Source: Actinomadura harenae (GTDB lineage: Bacteria; Actinomycetota; Actinomycetes; Streptosporangiales; Streptosporangiaceae). Taken from it: 64,000 nucleotides of DNA. Positions 1 through 50,918 of this stretch are shown in pieces. The notes under the pieces are model-generated. The model searched no databases. It was not told where the DNA came from and was given only the letters and a program-made list of their open reading frames with translations. A program made the translations under genes and the position numbers. Position 1 is the stretch's first letter; each line of letters begins with the position of its first letter. The stretch is taken from NCBI RefSeq assembly GCF_003696215.1, contig NZ_RFFG01000038.1, positions 1-64,000 on the forward strand, in the 5' to 3' direction.

Positions 1-1420
1 GAGCGTGCGGCGTGGGCGCCGGTCACCGGCCGCGCGCGCCCGGCCGCGCATCGGCGACGGTTGCGCGCAGCTCCCCGGCGAACGGCAGCCCGCGGAGGCG
101 CACCGCCGCCCTCAGCAGGGCAGCGAGGCAGACTGTCCGCATCCCCGGGTCCCGTCCTTTACCGTGCGGGCGACCCCGCCGTTCGGCACAGGCCAGATCA
201 ATCGTCGTGGGCTGGACGAGCTCGAATCAGGGGCTGCACCACCGCCTGAGTCACCAGCGCTCGTCCAGGTGAGCCAGCATGGCGCGGAAGCGGCGAGCAT
301 CACGCCGAGGTAGAACGTGTGCGGCCGCCTCCAAGTAGGACCGCACCGCCCAAGGATCGGTGCAGCACTCCCAGAAACCGCAACCCTCGTATCTCGGGTC
401 GTAGAGCCGGTGGTAGGGATCGTTAAGGACAGCTTCCCAGAGCCGGAGGGCTTGTCCTGTTGTTCCTGGACCTCTTCGACGGAGCTCGAACCGGATCAGC
501 AAGGTCATGCCGCGGGGCGACACCCCGGGGATGCACGCCGCGAGCGCCCGCCCCGCAGGCGGGAGGATTGATAGTTGCGCTTGGCGGAGTTGGCCAGGCC
601 GTCTACGCGGCATAGCCCTTTCGTGTCGACAGCATGCCGCACATCGTGGCATGAACCACTCATCAAGACCATCCCACGGTCAAGGCTGTTGCCGGTTGGG
701 CTGGAAGGGAGCGGGTCTCCCACGACCCCGATCTGACTGCCAGTCATGGTGAGCGACTTCGAACCAAGAGGCTTCACGGCCCGCTGGCCAAGCCGCATGG
801 CCGCATCGATCCATTCGGCCAGCGCCCACAACCCCAGCAGACTGGACAGCTCTCCCAGTGCGACGACGGCGAGCGTGCCCAGGTAGATCCAGCACACCAG
901 GTACGGCCTCACCTGGTGTTCAAACCGGGTGTCGAGCAGCGTGCCGAGGGGAGAGGGGCGGGCGCGTTGGGTGCCGGTCGCGGGAGGGGCCCATCGGGCT
1001 AGATCACCGCAGGTCGTGCACGCAGTCAGTCAGCGACACGGCATCGGCGGCCAGTGCGGATGGGCGGGTCAGGCTTGGTGAAGCGAGCTCGAACCAAGGG
1101 GCTTCGCAGCCCCCTGGACCCCCGCGCACCAGAGCACTCATTCGCGCGCTTCTGTCTGTCAGGGGTTCTCGCCGTCCGCGCGAACGAGCACTCTGGACCG
1201 GTCGCGGCGACTGTGACCCGAGTTGCCGGAATGGCGAGTATTTGGGGCGGGTGTGGAGGCGTGCGCCGAGTTCGCACGAGGGCCCGGCGTTGTCGCAGGC
1301 CAGCACGCCGAGGGGCGTGCAACTAGCGTGCAATTAGGAGGGGTGATCAAGGGGCAGTGGAGGGCAGTTGTGGACCATGGTTCGCCCAGGTCAGGATGCT
1401 GATGTGGGTTGATCCCGCAG
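1..1420. other. Distal end of a probable integrated element
   Basis: No gene of recognisable function lies here apart from one small possible ORF (251-508). The region ends exactly where a tRNA-Ala 3' fragment begins, which is how the far end of a tRNA-integrated element looks. It holds two related degenerate copies of a short sequence (about 747-785 and 1077-1118). It also has a 6-bp hairpin (1098-1113) and an imperfect 18-bp inverted repeat with arms at 1131-1148 and 1178-1195. No integrase or replication gene is visible, so the body of the element would lie to the left of the window. Confidence 0.45.
251..508 (-). CDS. Small hypothetical protein
   Basis: An 85-residue protein starting at the ATG beginning MTLLIRFELRRRG. 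A longer in-frame reading exists, but its first 48 residues look like random high-GC translation, whereas the part from this ATG has ordinary composition: aromatic and acidic residues, a DPYHRLYDPRYEG segment and a C-terminal helix ending HLDERW. No domain is recognised and the ribosome binding site is weak. It lies inside the presumed integrated element, so it may be element cargo. It could also be a gene remnant. Confidence 0.4.
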   Translation of the reverse strand: MTLLIRFELRRRGPGTTGQALRLWEAVLNDPYHRLYDPRYEGCGFWECCTDPWAVRSYLEAAAHVLPRRDARRFRAMLAHLDERW

Positions 1421-1421
1421 A

Positions 1422-1463
1422 TTTGCAAGCCGGGTGTCAGGGGTTCGAATCCCCTAGGCTCCA
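1422..1463 (+). mobile_element. tRNA-Ala(TGC) 3' fragment, attachment-site scar
   Basis: The sequence reads as the 3' part of a tRNA-Ala from the anticodon loop (TTTGCAA, anticodon TGC) onward. It includes a perfect T-arm (AGGGG, TTCGAAT, CCCCT), the 3' acceptor strand AGGCTCC and discriminator A. The 48 bases upstream cannot form the 5' half: no GGAGCCT-like acceptor strand or D-arm is present. This is the expected duplicate left when a site-specific element integrates into a tRNA 3' end. The hairpin immediately downstream would be the original tRNA terminator, so host DNA lies to the right and the element to the left. The intact tRNA would then lie beyond the left edge. Confidence 0.7.
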
Positions 1464-1470
1464 CCCCCAA

Positions 1471-1510
1471 GAAAGCCCAGGTCAGGAACCATTTCCCGAC
1501 CTGGGCTTTC
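1471..1510 (+). terminator. Terminator behind the tRNA-Ala fragment
   Basis: A perfect 13-bp stem (arms 1471-1483 and 1498-1510) with a 14-nt loop, followed by a T-rich stretch, eight bases after the tRNA-like 3' end. It uses the GCCCAGGTC arm also seen at 7123, so it looks like a recurrent host terminator type. Confidence 0.75.
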
Positions 1511-11580: not shown

Positions 11581-12408
11581 ATGACTTCGAACGCCGCCCC
11601 CGGCCGGTCCGCCGGGCACCCCTTCGACGCCGCTGTGCGACTCACCCAGGTCGGCGAGGGGCGGTTCGGCGGGCACACGTCGGCGGAGTACGCCAACATG
11701 GTCGGCCCGTTCGGCGGAGTGACGGCCGCGACGCTGCTGCGCGCGGTGCAGGTGGACCCGCGGTGCGCGGGCGATCCGGTAGCGCTGACGGTGAACTACG
11801 CCGGACCGCTCGCGCAGGGCCCCTTCACGGTCGAGGCGGAGCCGGTGCGGACGAACCGGCGGACGCAGCACTGGGCCCTGACGATGCTCCAGGACGACGT
11901 GGTCGCGGCGACCGCGACGGCGATCGTCGGCGCGCGTCCCGAGACCTGGGCGGACACCGAGGCCGTGCCGCCGTCCGCGCCGTCCGCCGACGAGGTGAAG
12001 ATCGCGGACCTGGCGGGCCTGGTGCCGTGGACGGACAACTACGAGTTCCGGTTCGTGGACGGCGCGCCGGACCTCGGGACCGGACCGCACCCGACGTCCG
12101 CGACCACGCTGTGGGTGCGCGACCACCCGGCCCGCCCGCTCGACCACCCCGCCCTGGTGGCGCTGAGCGACGTGTTCATTCCGCGGATCATGATGCGGCG
12201 CGGGGAGTACGTCCCCTCCGGGACGGTCACGCTGACCGTGTACTTCCACGCGGGCCCGGACCTGATCGCGGCCCAGGCGGACAGGCCGATCCTGGCGACC
12301 GCCGGCTCCGACCGGCTCGGCCTGGGATTCGCCGACCAGAGCGTCCGCCTCTGGACGCCCGAGGGCGGGCTTCTCGCGACGAGCCACCAGATGGTCTATT
12401 TCAAGTAG
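11581..12408 (+). CDS. Thioesterase-superfamily protein (TesB/4HBT-like)
   Basis: A 275-residue protein with two hotdog-like halves. The first has EYANMVGPFGGVTAATLLRAV and a GPFTVEAEPVRTNRRTQHW segment. The second covers PLDHPALVALSDVFIPRIMMRRG, with the active-site-region aspartate of TesB-type acyl-CoA thioesterases. It ends QMVYFK. Such enzymes hydrolyse acyl-CoA; the chain preference is unknown. The start is the ATG of MTSNAAPGRS; an alternative ATG lies 9 bp upstream. Confidence 0.8.
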   Translation: MTSNAAPGRSAGHPFDAAVRLTQVGEGRFGGHTSAEYANMVGPFGGVTAATLLRAVQVDPRCAGDPVALTVNYAGPLAQGPFTVEAEPVRTNRRTQHWALTMLQDDVVAATATAIVGARPETWADTEAVPPSAPSADEVKIADLAGLVPWTDNYEFRFVDGAPDLGTGPHPTSATTLWVRDHPARPLDHPALVALSDVFIPRIMMRRGEYVPSGTVTLTVYFHAGPDLIAAQADRPILATAGSDRLGLGFADQSVRLWTPEGGLLATSHQMVYFK

Positions 12409-13092
12409 CCGTCCTGGAACGCCAATGCCGTTCGGTGTCCTTGAGGTGCGCGTCCGGTGATCTGTTACGCGTTCGGTGACGGTTTTCGTGTCGGCGTCCG
12501 TCGCTCGCTCTCACAATCGTTGAAGAAGGCGTGCTGTGAGTATGAATCGGTGCTCCTTCTGCATATAGGGTGCGGATCAAGGAAACGCGCGGTATCGCGG
12601 ATCGAGCCTTCTCGGGAAGTGCTCATCCCTCGCCTGTTCTCGGATCGGTGTCCATTCGGACGGTGATGAGAGTTGAGATTCTCAGGCGATAACCAGGTGC
12701 CCTAACCCGTCAAGGTGGGCGTTCGCAAGCGGAATCGGCGGACGCTGGACGGCCATGCGCGAACGTCGAACATCCCCCGGGCCGGTCGTGTCGGAGCGCC
12801 GGTCGGTGGGTGGCGAGCCCGGTTCGTCCCTCGGCGCCTCTGGCATGTCTTGCCTGGTCAGGAGCGTCAGACTGACGGCGGCGCGGTCCGTTAAGGGGCT
12901 CGAATGGCTCTTCGTCCCGCGTGTCGTGAATGTCGTGTTTGATGATCAACGTGCCTGTAAGGTGGCGCGTCAGCCTGTACGGGGAAATCGCCGAACAGGC
13001 TGACAACACTGACAACTTGCGAACACGTGATCGCTCCCGGAAATGTTGGTGCCACCCCGAGCACGCCCCCCGCCGCATGACCAGGAGATTCG
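12409..13092. other. 684-bp intergenic region before wall-enzyme genes
   Basis: No convincing gene. Short open frames here have random composition. The stretch is less GC-rich than its neighbours, especially 12460-12720, and likely holds the promoter and a long leader for the secreted-enzyme block. I saw no clear riboswitch consensus. CCAGGAGATTCG before the ATG at 13093 is a good ribosome site. Confidence 0.5.
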
Positions 13093-13971
13093 ATGAAGCT
13101 TCCCAAATACGCCGCAGCCGCCACCGCGGCCGTCGCGTTCGTATCGATCGCCGGAGTGACCGCGGTTTCGGCGGCGCAGGCGGACAGCGGCCACAAGGCG
13201 GTCCCTTCGGCCGACGCGGCGGCGCTGCCGAGCGTGAACATGGAAGCGCTCGTCAAGGCCGCGCAGATCGACCCGCGCCGCGCGGACAACAAACTGACGC
13301 CGGGCGCCAAGGCCAGCGTCCTTCTCGTCGAAAAGGCCCTCGCGGACAAGCACCTGCTCGACAAGAAGTGGGTGGACGGCTACTTCGGCACGACGACGAC
13401 CGCCGCCTACACCAAGTACCAGAAGTCCCTCGGCTACAAGGGACTCAGCGCCAACGGCCTTCCCGGCAAGAGCTCGCTCGCCAAGCTCGGCGCCGGCCGC
13501 TTCACCGTCAACCACGTCATCGTGCCGGGCGCGAAGGTGAAGTTCGGCCCCAAGTACGTCGTCGACACCCGCACGCAGAAGATGCTTCTCCAGGCGCAGA
13601 AGGTTCTGCACCGCAAGCTCGTGCTCGACCAGGGTTCCTACAACCCGGGCGGCGACCCCACGTCCGTCGGAACCCATGACGGCGGCGGTGTCGTCGACAT
13701 CAACGTCAAGGGGATGAGCGCCGCCACCCGCACGTCGGTGGCCAAGGCGCTACGCCAGGTCGGGTTCGCCGCCTGGGTCCGCAACCCCAGCCAGGGCGAC
13801 TGGCCGTGGCACATCCACGCGACCGCGATCAACGACACCGACCTGTCCGTTCAGGCCCAGCACCAGATCGGTGACTACTACCTCGGCAAGAACGGTCTCG
13901 CGAACCGTGGCAAGGACGACGGTCCCAAGGTGACCATCCGCACCTGGGAGGAGTACCTGCGCCTCCACTGA
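13093..13971 (+). CDS. Secreted peptidoglycan-binding protein with M15-like zinc peptidase domain
   Basis: A 292-residue protein with a signal peptide (about residues 1-29, cleavage after VSAAQA). A peptidoglycan-binding-like region follows (about 65-140, with DGYFGTTTTAAYTKYQKSLGYKG). The C-terminal domain shows GTHDGGGVVDI (His195, Asp202) and PWHIHA (His240/His242), the zinc-ligand pattern of M15-type DD- or LD-carboxypeptidases. It probably trims peptide stems outside the cell. It is the first of three secreted wall-enzyme genes on the same strand (gaps 77 and 35 bp). The exact bond cleaved is not predictable. Confidence 0.82.
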   Translation: MKLPKYAAAATAAVAFVSIAGVTAVSAAQADSGHKAVPSADAAALPSVNMEALVKAAQIDPRRADNKLTPGAKASVLLVEKALADKHLLDKKWVDGYFGTTTTAAYTKYQKSLGYKGLSANGLPGKSSLAKLGAGRFTVNHVIVPGAKVKFGPKYVVDTRTQKMLLQAQKVLHRKLVLDQGSYNPGGDPTSVGTHDGGGVVDINVKGMSAATRTSVAKALRQVGFAAWVRNPSQGDWPWHIHATAINDTDLSVQAQHQIGDYYLGKNGLANRGKDDGPKVTIRTWEEYLRLH

Positions 13972-14048
13972 TCACGGAGAACACGCCAGGTCCCTCCCCG
14001 GCCCCGTCCGAAACCCCAGCCCCCGCCAGAAATCAAGGAGTACGGCCC

Positions 14049-14948
14049 ATGAAGATGCTCACCAAGGTCCTCACGACGGCGACCGCCGCCGCAGCGATCG
14101 GCGGCGCGGTCGTCGCCACCACGGCTTCCTCCGCTGACGCGGCCGGCCGGAACGGCAAGTGCGACACCGGCGAGTTCTGCCTCTATTACAACAGCAACCA
14201 GAAGGGCTCGGTCTCCGACTTCACCGGGTCCGTCCGGGACTACGGCGCCAAGCAGCCGGGCTGCTACGACTTCAAGAGCGCGGGCGCCGGCAAGGGCAAG
14301 TGCGTCAAGAACGCCACCGCCTCGGTGTGGAACCGGAGCAGCAAGACCGTCCGGGTCTACTTCAACAGCAACTTCGGCGGGCGCTACCAGGACTTCAAGG
14401 CCGGGGCCAAGGGCAACCTCAACTCCGGGCTGAAGAACCAGAACGCCTCGCACGAGTTCGCGCCGGCCAACCGCGTGAACATCTCGTACGGGCTGTACAA
14501 GGCCACCGGCGGACGCATCGCCTGCAAGTTCGACGGCTACACCTCGACCCCCGGCCGCCACGAGGGCACCGACATCTCCCGCCGCATCGGCTCCAAGGTC
14601 TACGCCCTGGTCGCGGGCAAGGTCATCTACGTCCACAAGGGCCAGAACGGCCGGGTCCACAGCAGCGACCTGTCCACGATCGCGATCTACAACGCGTCGC
14701 TGAAGAAGACGGTCATCTACCTGCACTCCGCGCCGTCGTCGACCCTGAAGGCGGGCCAGACGATCAAGAAGGGGCAGTACATCGCGACCGAGGCGTGGCA
14801 CGGCGTGTCCAGCGCCGGCGGCGCGCACACCCACGTCGAGATGCGCCTCGGCTACCAGACGCACGCCGCCATCAGCGTCGGCGACCCGCGCCTGGACAAC
14901 CCGAACCCGATCTCCTTCTGGAACCAGCAGGGCTACAACTACCGCTGA
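14049..14948 (+). CDS. Secreted I36 module fused to M23 peptidase
   Basis: A 299-residue protein. The signal peptide (about 1-32) ends ASSADA. An N-terminal peptidase-inhibitor-I36/beta-gamma-crystallin-type module (about 33-138) carries CDTGEFCLYYN and the paired Cys near 75-90. The C-terminal M23 metallopeptidase domain has RHEGTD (His171, Asp175) and HTHVEM (His260, His262). M23 enzymes cut peptidoglycan cross-bridges or stems. I36 domains are known as metalloprotease inhibitors, so the module could inhibit, regulate or anchor the enzyme. The next gene carries a near-identical copy of the module. Confidence 0.88.
   Translation: MKMLTKVLTTATAAAAIGGAVVATTASSADAAGRNGKCDTGEFCLYYNSNQKGSVSDFTGSVRDYGAKQPGCYDFKSAGAGKGKCVKNATASVWNRSSKTVRVYFNSNFGGRYQDFKAGAKGNLNSGLKNQNASHEFAPANRVNISYGLYKATGGRIACKFDGYTSTPGRHEGTDISRRIGSKVYALVAGKVIYVHKGQNGRVHSSDLSTIAIYNASLKKTVIYLHSAPSSTLKAGQTIKKGQYIATEAWHGVSSAGGAHTHVEMRLGYQTHAAISVGDPRLDNPNPISFWNQQGYNYR
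14322..14453 (+). repeat. 132-nt exact direct repeat, copy 1
   Basis: Identical base for base to 15263-15394, 941 bp downstream. It encodes the second half of the I36 module, from SVWNRSS to NQNASH. The identity extends through synonymous positions, so recent duplication or gene conversion is more likely than selection on protein alone. Confidence 0.92.
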
Positions 14949-14983
14949 CCCACCGCGGCCACTGACCCAAGGAGAGGATGACC

Positions 14984-15928
14984 ATGACCACACGGAAGAT
15001 GGTCGCTCGGGCCACCGCGGTGACCGCGGCGATGACGCTCGGCGGAGCGGCGCTGGTCGCGAGCACGGGTGTTGCCGATGCCGCCGGACGTAACGGCAAG
15101 TGCGACACCGGCGAGTTCTGCCTGTACTTCAACAGCAACCAGAAGGGCTCGCTGTCGGACTTCACCGGATCGGTGAGGGACTACGGCGCGAAGCAGCCGG
15201 GCTGCTACGACTTCAAGAGCGCGGGCGCCGGCAAGGGCGTGTGCGTCAAGAACCACACCGCGTCGGTGTGGAACCGGAGCAGCAAGACCGTCCGGGTCTA
15301 CTTCAACAGCAACTTCGGCGGGCGCTACCAGGACTTCAAGGCCGGGGCCAAGGGCAACCTCAACTCCGGGCTGAAGAACCAGAACGCCTCGCACCAGTTC
15401 AGCCCGTCCAGCACGCCGGCGCCGACCGGGTGCAAGACCGACGGCACGAACACGAAGGCGCCGTCGACCATCCTCGTGTACCGCGTCCGCAAGGGCACGG
15501 TCGAGCGGGTCAACTTCAAGTACTACGTGAAGAACGTCCTGCCGAAGGAATGGATCGTCAGCTGGAAGCAGGAGTCCCTGAAGTCGGGGGCGATGGCCGT
15601 CAAGAGCTACGCCTGGTGGTGGGCGCTGCACTCGACGCGCAAGGTCAACGGCCACTGCTACGACGTTCGTGACGACACGGGCAGCCAGGTGTACGTCCCG
15701 GGTTCCGCCACGAACGCCACCAACTCCGCGGTGGACGCCACGTGGGGCCACCGCATGACCCGCGGCGGCAAGATCTTCATGGCGCAGTACTGCGCGACCA
15801 CCACCGCGTGCGGCGCCTGGAAGACGGGCGACTGGATGTCGCAGTACGGCTCGCAGGACAAGGCCAAGGCGGGCTGGAGCTACACCCGGATCCTGAAGTA
15901 CTACTACAGCGGACTCACCATCTCCTAA
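14984..15928 (+). CDS. Secreted I36 module fused to SpoIID/LytB domain
   Basis: A 314-residue protein. Of two in-frame ATGs (14978, 14984) the second is chosen because AGGAGAGG ends immediately before the first. A signal peptide (about 1-33) is followed by an I36 module nearly identical to that of the preceding protein. After a Ser/Pro-rich linker comes a SpoIID/LytB domain: VLPKEW (putative catalytic Glu), SLKSGAMAVKSYAWW and WMSQYGSQDKAKAGWSYTRIL. SpoIID proteins are lytic transglycosylases acting on denuded glycan. Together with the two upstream genes this makes a set for peptide and glycan cleavage. Confidence 0.87.
   Translation: MTTRKMVARATAVTAAMTLGGAALVASTGVADAAGRNGKCDTGEFCLYFNSNQKGSLSDFTGSVRDYGAKQPGCYDFKSAGAGKGVCVKNHTASVWNRSSKTVRVYFNSNFGGRYQDFKAGAKGNLNSGLKNQNASHQFSPSSTPAPTGCKTDGTNTKAPSTILVYRVRKGTVERVNFKYYVKNVLPKEWIVSWKQESLKSGAMAVKSYAWWWALHSTRKVNGHCYDVRDDTGSQVYVPGSATNATNSAVDATWGHRMTRGGKIFMAQYCATTTACGAWKTGDWMSQYGSQDKAKAGWSYTRILKYYYSGLTIS
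15263..15394 (+). repeat. 132-nt exact direct repeat, copy 2
   Basis: The second copy of the block at 14322-14453, in the SpoIID-fusion gene. Homology outside the exact block continues upstream to the start of the module but with scattered differences. Confidence 0.92.
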
Positions 15929-15952
15929 GCATCAGGAGACCCTCTGACCTCT

Positions 15953-15984
15953 GGTTCCCCGCCGTGCTCCCACGGCGGGGAGCC
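15953..15984. terminator. Terminator after wall-enzyme block
   Basis: A 14-bp stem (15953-15966 with 15971-15984, one G-T pair) and 4-nt loop, 24 bp after the SpoIID gene stop. It also lies downstream of the convergent HTH gene, so it may serve both. Confidence 0.75.
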
Positions 15985-16063
15985 ATTGGTCGTTGTGGCC
16001 GCCGGGCGCGCGGCCGTCGGCTACGCGCGGCCGTCGGCGTCCTCGGCTTTTGAGCGGGTGCGT

Positions 16064-17392
16064 TCAGTGGCCGCGGACGACGAGCTGGAAGTTGACCGGA
16101 CGGTTCCCGGAGAAGGCGACGCGTCCGGCGGTGTCCAGCATCTTGAAGCGCGCGAGGCAGAAGCCCGGCTTCCTCGGCGTGGTGATCTCGACATGGATGT
16201 CCACCGTGTCGCCGGGACGCGTGGTGTTGATGGGCACGCGGGTCTTGGTCCGGCAGTCGTCCGGCCTCAGCGGCAGGTCGAGGCGGCGCAGCGAATAGCC
16301 GCGCCAGTACAGCGCGCCGGTGTTCCGGATCCGCCACACCTTGACGACGGTCGTGTTGGTGCCGACCAGGGTGCAGTCACGCAGGGTGATGTCGTCGACG
16401 AACGCGGCCGCGTCCCCCTTGTGCAAGGGCGGGGCCCACGCGGGCTGGCTCGGCTTCACCGGGCATCCGACCGCCGCGGCGGCCGCGGACGGACGGTCGG
16501 ACGGGGAGGGGACGTTCTCCTGGGGCTTGGATCCGCCGGTGGACTCGACCACGGTGTAGATCACCGCTCCCACCCCGGTCGCCAAGATCGCGGACGCGGC
16601 CAGGTAGGTGATCCGCATCCGCTTCTTGGAGCGCTTCGCGGGGAGCGGGGGCGTGACCTGCTGTTCTCCCCCGGCCGCACCGCGAAGGTCGCCGCCGAGA
16701 ACGGCGGGCGGCTGCGATGCCGGTCCGCCGGGAAGCTCATGCAGGGGAGTGACGGACGGCGCGGCGACGCCGGAAGCCTGCGCCGACACGGGAGCCGGCC
16801 CCGTGAGCTGCCCGGATGGTTGCGGCGGGGCTGCGGAGTGGACGGGCGGGGGCGGCGTCGCCGAGGTCTCGTTCGGGGGGAAGGGGGACGCGGCAGGCTC
16901 GTCGGACACCGGCTGCGCCTGCGATCCGACGACCATGTGAACGGACGGACGCTCCCCGGCGTCCACGGCGGAGGCCGCGGCCTCACCGGGCGGACGGACC
17001 GCCGCGGCGTTCGCGGCGTTCGCCTGGGCCGGGACGCTCGGCGTACCCGCGACGTTCGCTTGACCTGCGATGCTCGGCTGAGCCGGGGCGTTCGCGTTGC
17101 CTACGGCGTTCGGGGGAAGGGACGCGCTCGGGCCTCGGACGATGAGGTTCGCCTGTTCCCAGCGTTCGCGGTAGTCCTCGGGGTCTCCGCCGCAGGCCTT
17201 GACGAACTCGGCGGTGGTGCCCCAGCTCGGGAGCCGGTTCCCCTTGGTGGCCTCGTGCAGGGTTGTGTGTGAGATTGCCCCAGATCGTCCGGACATCTCC
17301 CGGAATGACGGGTTGCCGACCGAGTTTCGGAGTTCTCGTAGAACCTCCGCGAAGCCCTCGATCGCCTCCGCGCGTGCACGCCTCTCGTCCAC
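16064..17392 (-). CDS. Membrane-anchored HTH protein with NBR1-like Ig domain
   Basis: A 442-residue protein starting at GTG. The N-terminal XRE-type HTH (about 15-70; FREMSGRSGAISHTTLHEATKG) is followed by a long Ala/Pro/Ser-rich linker (about 85-245). Next come a basic stop-transfer KRSKKRMR and a single membrane helix (about 260-280). The C-terminal extracytoplasmic domain has CTLVGTNTTVVKVWRIRNTGALYW, the pattern of NBR1-type Ig-like domains. The topology puts a DNA-binding-like domain inside and a ligand-binding-like domain outside. It could couple envelope state to transcription, or the HTH could be a protein-interaction domain. It is monocistronic and convergent with the wall-enzyme block. 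Confidence 0.85.
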   Translation of the reverse strand: MDERRARAEAIEGFAEVLRELRNSVGNPSFREMSGRSGAISHTTLHEATKGNRLPSWGTTAEFVKACGGDPEDYRERWEQANLIVRGPSASLPPNAVGNANAPAQPSIAGQANVAGTPSVPAQANAANAAAVRPPGEAAASAVDAGERPSVHMVVGSQAQPVSDEPAASPFPPNETSATPPPPVHSAAPPQPSGQLTGPAPVSAQASGVAAPSVTPLHELPGGPASQPPAVLGGDLRGAAGGEQQVTPPLPAKRSKKRMRITYLAASAILATGVGAVIYTVVESTGGSKPQENVPSPSDRPSAAAAAVGCPVKPSQPAWAPPLHKGDAAAFVDDITLRDCTLVGTNTTVVKVWRIRNTGALYWRGYSLRRLDLPLRPDDCRTKTRVPINTTRPGDTVDIHVEITTPRKPGFCLARFKMLDTAGRVAFSGNRPVNFQLVVRGH

Positions 17393-17863: not shown

Positions 17864-18523
17864 TCAGGAGCGCAGAAAGGCCAGGACGGCGAGGACGCGG
17901 CGGTGGACGTCGGCGTCCGGCGGGAGGTCGAGCTTCGCCAGGATGCCGTTGATGTGCTTGCCGACGGCCGCGGCCGAGACGGTGAGGTCCTGCGCGATCG
18001 AGGCGTTGGAGCGGCCCTGGGCCATGAGCGCCAGCACCTCGCGCTCGCGCGGGGTGAGACGGTCGAGCGGGTCACGGCGGCGGCTCAGCAGGTGGCGGAT
18101 CACCTCGGGGTCGATCACCGTCCCGCCGTCGGCGACCCGCCGGACGGCGTCGGCGAAGTCCGTGACGTCGATGACGCGGTCCTTCAGCAGGTAGCCGACC
18201 GCGCGCGCCTCGGTGGAGTCGAGCAGCTCACCGGCCGACGCGGTCTCGATGTACTGGCTGATCACGAGCACGGGCAGCCGGGGATCGCGCTCGCGCAGCG
18301 CGATCGCGGCCCGCAGGCCGTCGTCGGTCAGCGTCGGCGGCATGCGGACGTCGGTGACCACGATGTCCGGCTTGTGGGTCTCGACGGCGGCGACGAGGGA
18401 CGGCGCGTCCCCGACGGCCTCGACGACCTCGTGCCCGAACCGGGTGAGCACGGCGGTCACGCCGTCGCGCATCAGGGCTCCGTCCTCGGCGAGGACGACG
18501 CGGAGGGGACGGGCTTCGGACAC
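17864..18523 (-). CDS. LuxR/NarL-family response regulator
   Basis: A 219-residue regulator starting at GTG. The receiver domain has phospho-acceptor Asp58 (KPDIVVTDVRMPP) and Lys in GYLLKDRV. The C-terminal GerE HTH has LTPREREVLALMAQGRSNASIA. It overlaps the upstream kinase gene by 52 bp, so translation is probably coupled. It is the partner of the kinase at 18472 and a likely regulator of the divergent ABC operon. Confidence 0.93.
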   Translation of the reverse strand: MSEARPLRVVLAEDGALMRDGVTAVLTRFGHEVVEAVGDAPSLVAAVETHKPDIVVTDVRMPPTLTDDGLRAAIALRERDPRLPVLVISQYIETASAGELLDSTEARAVGYLLKDRVIDVTDFADAVRRVADGGTVIDPEVIRHLLSRRRDPLDRLTPREREVLALMAQGRSNASIAQDLTVSAAAVGKHINGILAKLDLPPDADVHRRVLAVLAFLRS

Positions 18524-19767
18524 GGAATCTCCACTCTCAGCAGGGTCGGACCCCCGGACGGGCTGGTCAGCGCGAGGGTTCCGCCGACGACCGCGAGCCG
18601 GTCGGACAGGCCGGTCAGGCCGCTGCCGCCGTCCGGGTCGGCGCCGCCCGCGCCATCATCGCCGATCTCCAGGCGCAGGGTGCCACCGGTGTGCGCGGCG
18701 GTGACCCAGGCGTGGTCCGCGCCGCTGTGCCGGGCGACGTTGGCCAGCGCCTCGCAGACGACGAAGTACCCCGTGGCCTCGACGGCGGCGGGCAGGCGTC
18801 CGGTGACGTCCCAGGTCAGGGCCACCGGGACGGGGGAACGGTCGGCGGTGTCCTGGACGGCCGCGCCCAGGCCGTGCTGGGTCAGCACCTGCGGATGGAT
18901 CCCGTGGATCAGCTCGCGCAGCTCGGTGAGCGCCTCGCGCGCCTCCCGGTGGGCGTGCGCGACCCGGTCGGCGGCGGGGCCGGGCGGCAGGTCGAGCATC
19001 GCCAGGCCGAGGCTGGTCGCGACCGCGACGAGACGCTGCTGCGCGCCGTCGTGCAGGTCGCGTTCGATGCGGCGGCGCTCGGCCTCGAACGCGTTGACCA
19101 GCCGCGCGCGGGACCCGGTGACCTCCGCGAGCAGCCGCGCCGCCTCGTCCGGACGGGGGGCGAGGAGGTGCCGGGTGAACGCGGCGCGTCCGGCCGCGGC
19201 CAGTGTGACCAGGTAGGCGGAGGCCACGAGCAGGACGATCCCGACGGGGAGGGCGATGGCCGCCTGCCCGAAGGTTCTGATCGCGATGCCCGGCGCGAGC
19301 CCGCGCTGTCCGCCGGACAGGACGGGCGTCCAGGCGGTGAGCAGCGCCAGCGGCGGCACGGCGCCGACCAGGGCGACGGCCAGATCGAGTGGCCACAGAA
19401 CCGTGGCCAGCAGGACAGTGAATCCCAGCTCGCGCCAGGTCGCGGACTCGCGGACCCGCGTGGCGAGCCAGCCCCCGACGCCCGGACGGTCCGGCGCGCG
19501 ATGCGGATCGGCGACCGGGTCGGGGTCCACCAGGCGGAGCCGCCACCGCTCGAACGCGGCGACCGGGACGCCCGCGAAGGCCAGCGCCCCCAGTATCGGC
19601 AGCCCGACGAGCACCGACGCCAGCGTCCCGCCGACGAGCAGCACCGCCGCGACGACCGTCAGCACGAGCGCGCCCGGAACCGAGCTGGTCACCAGGTACG
19701 CCAGGCTCCGCCAGGGCCACGCCGATGCCAGGAACCCGCGGCGTCTCAGGGCCGTCGTCGCCTGCAT
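18472..19767 (-). CDS. NarL-family sensor histidine kinase
   Basis: A 431-residue kinase. Hydrophobic segments occupy about residues 20-190 (including the VPGALVLTVVAAVLLVGG stretch and a two-helix sensor-like region). A HisKA_3 domain has ERRRIERDLHDGAQQRL with phospho-acceptor His239. The HATPase domain has CEALANVARHSG and GSGLTGLSDRL. The start is the ATG of MQATTALRRRG. It is cotranscribed with the overlapping response regulator and divergent from the ABC pair at 19902. Confidence 0.92.
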   Translation of the reverse strand: MQATTALRRRGFLASAWPWRSLAYLVTSSVPGALVLTVVAAVLLVGGTLASVLVGLPILGALAFAGVPVAAFERWRLRLVDPDPVADPHRAPDRPGVGGWLATRVRESATWRELGFTVLLATVLWPLDLAVALVGAVPPLALLTAWTPVLSGGQRGLAPGIAIRTFGQAAIALPVGIVLLVASAYLVTLAAAGRAAFTRHLLAPRPDEAARLLAEVTGSRARLVNAFEAERRRIERDLHDGAQQRLVAVATSLGLAMLDLPPGPAADRVAHAHREAREALTELRELIHGIHPQVLTQHGLGAAVQDTADRSPVPVALTWDVTGRLPAAVEATGYFVVCEALANVARHSGADHAWVTAAHTGGTLRLEIGDDGAGGADPDGGSGLTGLSDRLAVVGGTLALTSPSGGPTLLRVEIPCPKPVPSASSSPRTEP

Positions 19768-19790
19768 CGGCCCAGCATATAAGCGGCTTT

Positions 19791-19802
19791 TGGGACGTCC
19801 CA
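19791..19802. promoter_or_regulatory. Palindrome in kinase/ABC divergent promoter
   Basis: A perfect 12-bp palindrome TGGGACGTCCCA lies 24 bp from the kinase start and 100 bp from the ATPase start. It is a candidate site for the NarL-type regulator at 17864, which would give autoregulation and ABC control. This is inferred from position only. Confidence 0.4.
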
Positions 19803-19901
19803 TAGGGCGTGGGAGAGGGGGCGGGGTAAGGCTGGGCATACCCCGCAGACGGTGCTCCGGCTGATCGACCGGGCCTGGTCCCCGGCGCTTGACTTGAGGG
19901 C

Positions 19902-20687
19902 ATGGACATCGTGCGGCTCACCGCGGTGAGCAAGACCCACGGGACGGGATCCGGCGCCGTCACCGCCCTGGACAAGGTCACCCTGGGGTTCCCGGAAGGG
20001 TCGTTCACCGCCGTGATGGGCGCGTCCGGATCGGGCAAGTCGACGCTGCTCCAGTGCGCGGCCGGGCTGGAGCGTCCGACGGCCGGGACCGTGTCGGTCG
20101 CGGGCACGGACCTGTCGCGGCTCCGCGAGTCCGCGCTGACCAGGCTGCGGCGCGAAACGATCGGGTTCATCTTCCAGGCCTACAACCTGCTGCCCGCGCT
20201 GACCGCCGAACAGAACGTCGGCATGCCGCTGCGCCTGGCCGGGCACCGTCCCGACCCGCACGCCGTCCGCGCCGCCCTCGACGCCGTCGGCCTCGCCGAC
20301 CGCGCCCGCCACCGTCCGGCGGAACTCTCCGGTGGCCAGCAGCAACGCGTCGCCATCGCGCGGGCCCTCGTCGCCGCGCCGCGCGTCCTGTTCGCCGACG
20401 AGCCGACCGGCGCGCTGGACAGCGCGTCCTCCCGCACCGTCCTCGGGATCCTGCGCACCCTCGTCACCGGACACGGTCAGACGATCATCATGGTCACCCA
20501 CGACCCCGTCGCCGCCGCCCACGCGGACCGCGTCGTCTTCCTCGCCGACGGCCGCGTCGCCGGAACCCTCGACCACCCCGACGCCTCCACCGTGGCCGCC
20601 CACCTCACCGCCCTCGACCCCGCCACCCCGCCGAGCGCCCAGGCGGGCGGGGCCGCCGCGTTCGCGAAGAAGGAGGCGTCGTGCTGA
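19902..20687 (+). CDS. ABC transporter ATP-binding protein (MacB/LolD type)
   Basis: A 261-residue ATPase with Walker [11 protein letters not shown]-loop [11 protein letters not shown], signature LSGGQQQR, Walker [14 protein letters not shown] and the H-loop VTHD. The TGA overlaps the GTG of the permease gene. It is the second MacB-like ATPase in the window next to a NarL-type two-component system. Confidence 0.93.
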
Positions 20688-50060: not shown

Positions 50061-50918
50061 ATGCCGTTGCACCGGACTCCCAGCTCCCGGATCCGTGCCG
50101 TCCGCGGCGACGCCGCCGGACCGGTCCGCCGCTCGTACGCGCGCGTCCCCGCACCAGCCCGGACGGCCCGTCGCGCCGCCGCGTTCACCGTCACGCTCGC
50201 GCTCGCGTCGGCGGCCGCGACCGGATGCGGCCATGGGGAATCGAAGCCCGCGTCGAGCTCGTCACCCGCCACGCCGCCCGTCGCGCCGGGCTCACCGACC
50301 GGGACCGTCGGCACCGCCACCGCCACGGCGTCCCCGACGCAGGACCTCAACCGGTTCCAGGCGCAGGTCAACAAGGTGACCGCGAAGGACCTGGCGCACT
50401 CGTGGCACTCGGGCTGCCCGGTCCCGCCGTCCGGGCTCCGGATGATCGTCATGAACTACTGGGGCATGGACTCCCGCCCGCACGCGGACGGCAGGCTCGT
50501 CGTCAACGCGTCCGCCGCGAACAAGCTGACCGGCGTGTTCCGCAAGCTTTTCGAGAACAAATACCCGATCCACAAGATGGTGCCGGTCGACGCCTACAAG
50601 GGCAGCGACTTCGACTCCATCGAGGACGACAACACCTCGGCGTTCAACTGCCGCAACGCGACCGGATCGGGCAGCTGGTCGCAGCACGCCTACGGGCTCG
50701 CGATCGACATCAACCCCTGCGAGAACCCGTACGTCACGGCGTCCGGGCACATCGACCACCCGCGCTGCGTGAAGTTCGGCGACCGCTCGCGCCGCGACCC
50801 GGGACTGATCCACGCGGGGGACTCGACGGTCAAGGCGTTCGCCTCGATCGGCTGGGGCTGGGGCGGCTCGTGGGTCGGCACCCGCGACTACCAGCACTTC
50901 TCCAGCAACGGCCGCTGA
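50061..50918 (+). CDS. M15-family D-alanyl-D-alanine carboxypeptidase-like lipoprotein
   Basis: A 285-residue protein. A basic N terminus and hydrophobic stretch lead to the lipobox LASAAATGC, so it should be lipid-anchored outside. The catalytic domain has SGSWSQHAYGLAIDINPCENPY (zinc His and Asp) and the C-terminal GWGWGGSW then DYQHFS (zinc His), typical of VanY/M15C peptidases. Cys pairs may form disulfides. It would trim the terminal D-Ala or cleave stem peptides. Its ribosome site is weak. Confidence 0.85.
   Translation: MPLHRTPSSRIRAVRGDAAGPVRRSYARVPAPARTARRAAAFTVTLALASAAATGCGHGESKPASSSSPATPPVAPGSPTGTVGTATATASPTQDLNRFQAQVNKVTAKDLAHSWHSGCPVPPSGLRMIVMNYWGMDSRPHADGRLVVNASAANKLTGVFRKLFENKYPIHKMVPVDAYKGSDFDSIEDDNTSAFNCRNATGSGSWSQHAYGLAIDINPCENPYVTASGHIDHPRCVKFGDRSRRDPGLIHAGDSTVKAFASIGWGWGGSWVGTRDYQHFSSNGR

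Follow-up and report, generated by a model that had tools for sequence, protein, structure and literature searches.

A cassette of three genes for predicted secreted wall enzymes lies at 13093-15928 of the DNA analysed here, a 64,000-nucleotide stretch of Actinomadura harenae (contig NZ_RFFG01000038.1; the window), and is followed by a gene for a putative membrane-spanning regulator. Genes 2 and 3 carry near-identical N-terminal I36 modules joined to two different enzyme domains, M23 and SpoIID, and the set recurs in other actinomycetes with its linked gene and with a conserved element upstream of gene 1. We propose, with confidence that is about evenly balanced, that the three genes and the linked protein, a helix-turn-helix-FW membrane receptor of the one-component type, constitute a wall-remodelling regulon of actinomycetes. 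The near-identity of the I36 modules, the linked regulator gene and the promoter element all go beyond the initial annotation of this DNA. The features are as follows.

12969-12978 and 12995-13004, no strand assigned: inverted repeat of 10 bp, GTCAGCCTGT / ACAGGCTGAC, in the promoter region
12995-13019, plus strand: conserved element ACAGGCTGACAAC-N8-CTTG, with the core CTGACAAC at 13000-13007
13093-13971, plus strand: gene 1, predicted secreted peptidoglycan-binding-like protein with HxxxxxxD...HxH (M15-like zinc motif)
14049-14948, plus strand: gene 2, predicted secreted I36 + M23 fusion, with HEGTD at residue 171 and the tripeptide HTH at residue 260
14142-14390, plus strand: I36 betagamma-crystallin module of gene 2 (PF03995)
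14322-14453, identical to 15263-15394, plus strand: tract of 132 bp, probably the trace of a recent gene conversion
14978-15928, plus strand: gene 3, predicted secreted I36 + SpoIID/LytB fusion
15083-15331, plus strand: I36 betagamma-crystallin module of gene 3 (PF03995)
15422-15925, plus strand: SpoIID domain of gene 3, containing a Glu invariant in 62/62 alignment rows
16064-17392, minus strand: linked gene, HTH_31 (XRE-type) + membrane helix (residues 264-282) + NBR1/FW immunoglobulin-like (Ig) domain

The initial annotation had placed three consecutive secreted genes in this interval. Their coordinates proved exact; all three open reading frames are on the plus strand, separated by 77 bases (genes 1 and 2) and 29 bases (genes 2 and 3), and by our reading their N-termini are probably signal peptides. 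The two fusions that had been described were borne out by Pfam matches above the curated cut-offs: Inhibitor_I36 (E 1.4e-12) and Peptidase_M23 (E 9.4e-9) in gene 2, Inhibitor_I36 (E 2e-11) and SpoIID (E 2.7e-12) in gene 3. The I36 modules score 47.8 and 44.1 bits against a cut-off of 21.1, and the M23 domain, in which the zinc ligands HxxxD and HxH are present, scores 35.8 bits against 28.7. Both parts are matched in 51/51 alignment rows of gene 2 and in 62/62 rows of gene 3; these rows were preselected for having both parts, and they confirm the fusions without giving a frequency. A regular expression retrieved the M23 zinc motifs in 47 of the 51 gene 2 rows; three of the misses read HTHIE by eye and the fourth (L133) belongs to another type of M23. 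Gene 3 has the profile match, the fold and the conserved glutamate of SpoIID/LytB proteins. In structure models the I36 module adopts a betagamma-crystallin fold, as had been suggested, and fold matches include the latent M23 enzyme LytM (1qwy), lysostaphin and LasA; for the other model, the SleC zymogen structure 9h68, whose record labels SleC a lytic transglycosylase, was a top match.

To assess the conservation of the set, 84 loci were read by one procedure: the window, three other loci of the host genome, and 80 named loci that are the best 80 of 114 relatives, a sample therefore tilted to close kin. All three gene kinds are present in 66/84 loci (short gene 1 pieces of L085 were excluded from this count, and gene 1 of L141 belongs to a second set 5 kb off), and 10 of the 18 incomplete loci start at a contig end. 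The typical layout is gene 1 / I36-X / I36-SpoIID, X being the catalytic domain of the middle enzyme; in Thermocrispum the gene order is different. The named loci span 15 genera, seven families and five orders, and complete sets were found in four of the five orders, the Jatrophihabitans locus being cut off. This recurrence rules out a local rearrangement, in agreement with the expectation that the fusions would be found in relatives. The 9.35-Mb host genome itself holds two more cassettes (C1 and C276) and a lone I36-CHAP gene (C46). More broadly, PF03995 was matched at E<=1e-6 in 36/59 genomes searched, frequently by two matches about 820-960 bases apart.

The two I36 modules of the window are identical at 308/336 bases, and genes 2 and 3 have 43/90 bases in common in the signal-peptide part and 41/126 in the region after the module. 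Among 70 cassettes with two usable I36 modules, the difference at 4-fold sites is 0.209 within a cassette vs 0.416 between cassettes (0/2000 permutations as low), and in 26/70 both modules are closer to their own partner than to every same-position relative. In Actinomadura and Nonomuraea the I36 copies of one cassette are far more similar than copies across cassettes. An approximately unbiased (AU) test on 54 M23-type cassettes and 110 columns, set up after an earlier tree had been inspected (one row of that tree, L078, was excluded), rejected a tree in which all M23-type modules form one clade (AU p 0.0001, log-likelihood 656 lower); modules of the same cassette were sister pairs in 25/54. 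The I36 modules thus evolve concertedly in most of the lineages sampled, Micromonospora excepted. Because the attached enzyme domains are non-homologous and fixed in place, the pattern is most simply explained by recurrent gene conversion.

The cassettes differ in the catalytic domain of the middle enzyme, whereas I36, SpoIID and gene 1 remain constant. In most cassettes X is M23, and in others it is CHAP (two were scanned, E 9e-16 and 9e-15); in some Micromonospora, Asanoa and Actinoplanes, one Phycicoccus and one Actinomadura it is NlpC/P60- or CHAP-like, the five scanned domains of this kind lying below the Pfam cut-offs, and Thermocrispum has a second kind of M23. The type member of family I36 is SMI of Streptomyces. 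The modules described here resemble this peptidase inhibitor family (PF03995) in their profile match above the cut-off and in the betagamma-crystallin fold of the models; unlike the inhibitors, they are N-terminal modules on larger, putatively secreted enzymes of several kinds. Their retention on M23, CHAP and NlpC/P60-like enzymes speaks for a common docking module rather than for an inhibitor of metallopeptidases, and dedication to M23 inhibition is unlikely given that I36 is also joined to domains of the cysteine-peptidase and glycosidase types. I36 may therefore be a shared wall-docking module, a role that we infer from sequence comparison.

The zinc motifs of gene 1 (HxxxxxxD at residues 195-202 and HIH at 240-242) are invariant across a 34-row alignment, and a pattern scan found both in 68/68 relatives. 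Its peptidoglycan-binding part is matched weakly by PG_binding_1 (Pfam E 0.05, below cut-off) and by the NCBIfam model PG_bind_siph, likewise below cut-off for gene 1 and matching 34/34 relatives at E<=0.1. No M15 family profile matched gene 1 at E<=1 or the 34 relatives at E<=0.1, PF08291 had no match in the host genome, and hhalign gave no match between gene 1 and the M15_4 protein of the host. The description of gene 1 as M15-like with a peptidoglycan-binding-like region therefore stands for the motifs and, weakly, for the binding part, and denotes a resemblance of motifs; membership of the M15 family is rejected. A search of the PDB with the gene 1 profile returned a sole match, 1lbu (E 0.21, weak, binding part only), which we take to be the muramoyl-pentapeptide carboxypeptidase of Streptomyces albus G, an M15 enzyme. 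Gene 1 is like 1lbu in having a peptidoglycan-binding part ahead of the zinc-motif part, and unlike it in having no M15 profile match. A genuine M15_4 (D-alanyl-D-alanine carboxypeptidase) protein is encoded at 50301-50915 of the window and is the only PF13539 match in the host genome.

Behind the cassette, the linked gene encodes, in this order, a helix-turn-helix matched by HTH_31 below its cut-off (E 0.00035; 21.3 bits vs 27), a long proline/alanine-rich stretch, the membrane helix and a C-terminal NBR1/FW Ig domain (N_BRCA1_IG, 41.5 bits vs a cut-off of 28). It thereby combines the two parts of XRE-FW proteins, an XRE-type helix-turn-helix and an FW/NBR1 domain, in one protein. A relative of the Ig domain is present at the cassette in 72/83 loci, and a hydrophobic segment separates helix-turn-helix and Ig in 68/70 proteins having both; both proteins without it come from strain CNU-125, on two contigs that gave identical values. 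The gene lies behind the cassette and convergent with it at most Streptosporangiales loci, before it and co-directional in Micromonospora, Asanoa, Actinoplanes and four Actinomadura, and behind it, again co-directional, in Phycicoccus, Jatrophihabitans, Metallococcus and Rugosimonospora. Retention of the linkage across several arrangements argues for a functional tie. PF16158 was matched at E<=0.001 in the host genome only twice, each time beside a cassette, and in 46/65 genomes of the genus. The genus also has a further group of XRE-FW genes (L198-L205, L207, L219), with no cassette genes within ~1.5 kb; several of them share conserved neighbours that are specific to this group. Six CHAP-type Actinomadura cassettes (L044, L120, L150, L154, L156, L158) have neither the helix-turn-helix-FW gene nor an exact CTGACAAC and may be under different control.

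The upstream element was examined ahead of 68 gene 1 genes, all on the plus strand and matched over a sufficient length. CTGACAAC is present in 53/68 of these regions, where 2.6 are expected from random stretches of the same loci, and occurs in Streptosporangiales, Micromonosporales and Micrococcales. The consensus of 37 Streptosporangiales regions is ACAGGCTGACAACAccGaTcttCTtG, and the left arm of the inverted repeat of the window (12969-12978) falls outside it. All 53 regions with the element have a regulator, and all seven without a regulator lack the element (Fisher p 7e-6). In the host genome, ACAGGCTGACAACAC occurs exactly twice, once upstream of this cassette and once upstream of the unlinked I36-CHAP gene; allowing up to two mismatches in the 15-mer added four matches, vs three for the reversed control, and none of the four has a cassette domain beside it.

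Across 65 Actinomadura genomes, GRACARSCTGACAACA has 32 matches in 32 genomes (reversed control 0). Of the 30 of these loci that were read, 27 have the match within 500 bases before gene 1 and one before a split gene 1; the stretches of the other two contain no cassette gene, one match abutting a TnpB-like insertion and one preceding another secreted-looking protein, by eye. At L176 (~1400-1520), where gene 1 would be expected, a copy of the element is accompanied by an apparent TnpB-type insertion, to judge by eye. The two-part element has 26 matches in 23 of the 65 genomes (reversed control 0); 21 precede gene 1, four precede unlinked I36-CHAP genes and one lies elsewhere, all 26 having been read. 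The last (L260, ~1051-1500, minus strand) precedes a small secreted-looking protein, a possible member of the regulon. Since the I36-CHAP genes are unlinked, the element alone predicts module-bearing enzymes, and a shared regulon is likely.

We envisage the following mechanism, whose steps are predicted from sequence. The three genes would form an operon. The outer NBR1 (FW) Ig domain would read a signal from the wall or envelope, and the inner helix-turn-helix would bind DNA and act on the CTGACAAC copies that precede gene 1 and the unlinked I36-CHAP gene, such that expression of the wall enzymes is raised or released when the FW domain meets a given state of the wall. The gene 1 product would dock on the wall via its peptidoglycan-binding part, and the products of gene 2, gene 3 and the I36-CHAP gene via one common I36 betagamma-crystallin module. 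Cutting would then be sequential, with gene 1 acting as peptide trimmer, the M23 (or CHAP/NlpC-like) enzyme as cross-link cutter and SpoIID as lytic transglycosylase, the activity for which SpoIID is known. Peptide and glycan would be cut one after the other, similar to the cooperation of SpoIIP and SpoIID in endospore-forming bacteria. Paired hydrolysis is described in a review that assigns the two activities the opposite way round (PMC7985256). In most of the lineages sampled, gene conversion would homogenise the two I36 modules, as would be anticipated for modules with a common ligand. Somewhat more tentatively, we suggest that a bacterial NBR1/FW domain serves here as the outside sensor of a membrane-spanning transcription factor that senses the state of the wall and directly controls a four-enzyme wall-remodelling regulon, three members of which would share a crystallin-type address module, with interchangeable catalytic domains and gene conversion keeping the modules uniform.

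Several observations weigh against this proposal. The exact 8-mer is missing from 15/68 upstream regions, eight of which have a regulator, and from one (L075) of the four lone I36-CHAP genes read first. The gene 1 tree offers only two independent regulator changes, so that, because of kinship, the co-occurrence of element and regulator is suggestive only. Among 29 regulator-family loci read in the genus, 19 have cassette genes within ~1.5 kb and the remaining 10 have none, so that targets of a different kind are probable for other branches of the family. Distribution across the phylum is patchy: an evenly drawn sample of 246 of its genomes gave a full-length I36-SpoIID match (E<=1e-30) in the host and one other only, and in three further genomes of this sample the SpoIID part was matched and I36 was not. 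In Micromonospora, 11 cassettes gave no concerted evolution (545/2000 permutations as low). Finally, the element may be a sigma-factor promoter and not the site of the helix-turn-helix.

This last alternative, in which CTGACAAC belongs to an alternative sigma factor and the helix-turn-helix-FW protein is a mere neighbour or controls something else, is unlikely in our estimate, though it deserves serious weight. The element lies ~90 bases before the start of gene 1 and contains CTGACA, by our reading one letter off the -35 sequence TTGACA; the eight cassettes with a regulator and no exact 8-mer, and the regulator branches located elsewhere, also speak for this alternative. Against it stand the co-occurrence of element and regulator described above and the survival of the linkage between regulator and cassette through several gene arrangements; a search of 12400-16100 for sigma-70-type promoters found none.

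The enzymes might instead be a secreted weapon or feeding tool, the module targeting the walls of other bacteria or fungi and the regulator sensing prey or foreign wall fragments. In favour of this, each of the three products appears to be secreted, we see no anchor in them, the hosts are soil actinomycetes, and the lytic M23 enzymes lysostaphin and LasA are among the fold matches. We nevertheless regard such a role as distinctly unlikely, since there is no pointer to a foreign target and the cassette is a chromosomal set with its own regulator in many species; no immunity gene was recognised beside it, though no search was aimed at one. A mobile origin was considered and rejected: the gene 3 protein matched four records of a phage collection, none with 80% cover (best match 34% cover and 50% identity, over the I36 part), and four records of a plasmid collection, one at 80% cover; the latter is the 11.85-Mb record of Nonomuraea gerenzanensis, in which the match region is unannotated. 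An unannotated phage-labelled contig from human faeces (MT837995.1, 3090-3410) encodes a module resembling I36, with 50% identity to the one in gene 3.

The initial annotation had left wall targeting and latency side by side as roles for I36. Under latency, the module would cover the attached active site until clipped or until the target is met, the enzymes being secreted as zymogens; the name of the family and the presence of one copy on a metallopeptidase speak for this, as do latent LytM and the SleC zymogen among the fold matches. The same type of module sits on CHAP, NlpC/P60-like and SpoIID domains, whose active sites are unrelated, which makes latency quite improbable and leaves docking as the favoured half of that suggestion. 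That duplicated wall-hydrolase genes are adjacent by accident and under no common control is scarcely credible: tandem duplication is common in large actinomycete genomes and the two I36 modules are near copies, yet the set recurs across loci and orders and unlinked I36-CHAP genes bear the same promoter element.

As for the surroundings of the proposed regulon, open reading frames at 17864-20687, downstream, are histidine-kinase-like, LuxR-type response-regulator-like and ABC-transporter ATPase-like by our reading; close relatives of this stretch are retained at the cassettes of A. logoneensis (L080) and A. rupiterrae (L081), which are therefore orthologous loci. Rfam gave no match at E<=1 in 12300-16200.

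The cassette differs from known systems in several respects. M23/LytM endopeptidases that have a separate domain for wall binding, lysostaphin for example, lack the arrangement seen here, where the extra domain is I36/betagamma-crystallin and N-terminal. Unlike SpoIID and the SpoIID-like part of SleC, gene 3 is predicted to be secreted, has a crystallin module and occurs in hosts that do not form endospores, and its SpoIID protein is partnered with gene 2 and not with SpoIIP/SpoIIM. XRE-FW proteins, with an XRE helix-turn-helix and an FW (NBR1) domain near the C-terminus, are described in the accessible part of PMC3357945, which counts actinobacteria among the holders and speculates on dimerisation or ligand binding. 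In the examples seen there, FW follows immediately after the helix-turn-helix and no target is given, whereas the linked gene has a long stretch and a membrane helix in between and is tied to a wall-enzyme cassette. A literature search that covered few subscription journals found no recognisable description of I36-M23 or I36-SpoIID fusions or of this cassette. All single domains are known; the literature searched yielded no account of their joining through one module with interchangeable enzymes, of the concerted evolution of that module, or of the link to a transmembrane XRE-FW protein with a conserved element.

Taken together, loose annotations (peptidase inhibitor I36, SpoIID, M23, HTH/NBR1) become one testable system, which offers a clear case of concerted evolution in which a non-catalytic module alone is affected and the catalytic domains joined to it differ, and a conserved element that allows sequence-based mapping of the regulon in large-genome actinomycetes. 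The I36 crystallin fold would thereby gain a role beyond inhibition, and the bacterial FW-domain regulators, whose function is not settled in the accessible part of PMC3357945, a proposed set of target genes. If the proposal is true, bacterial XRE-FW proteins would acquire a first function, and the I36 fold a part in wall targeting.

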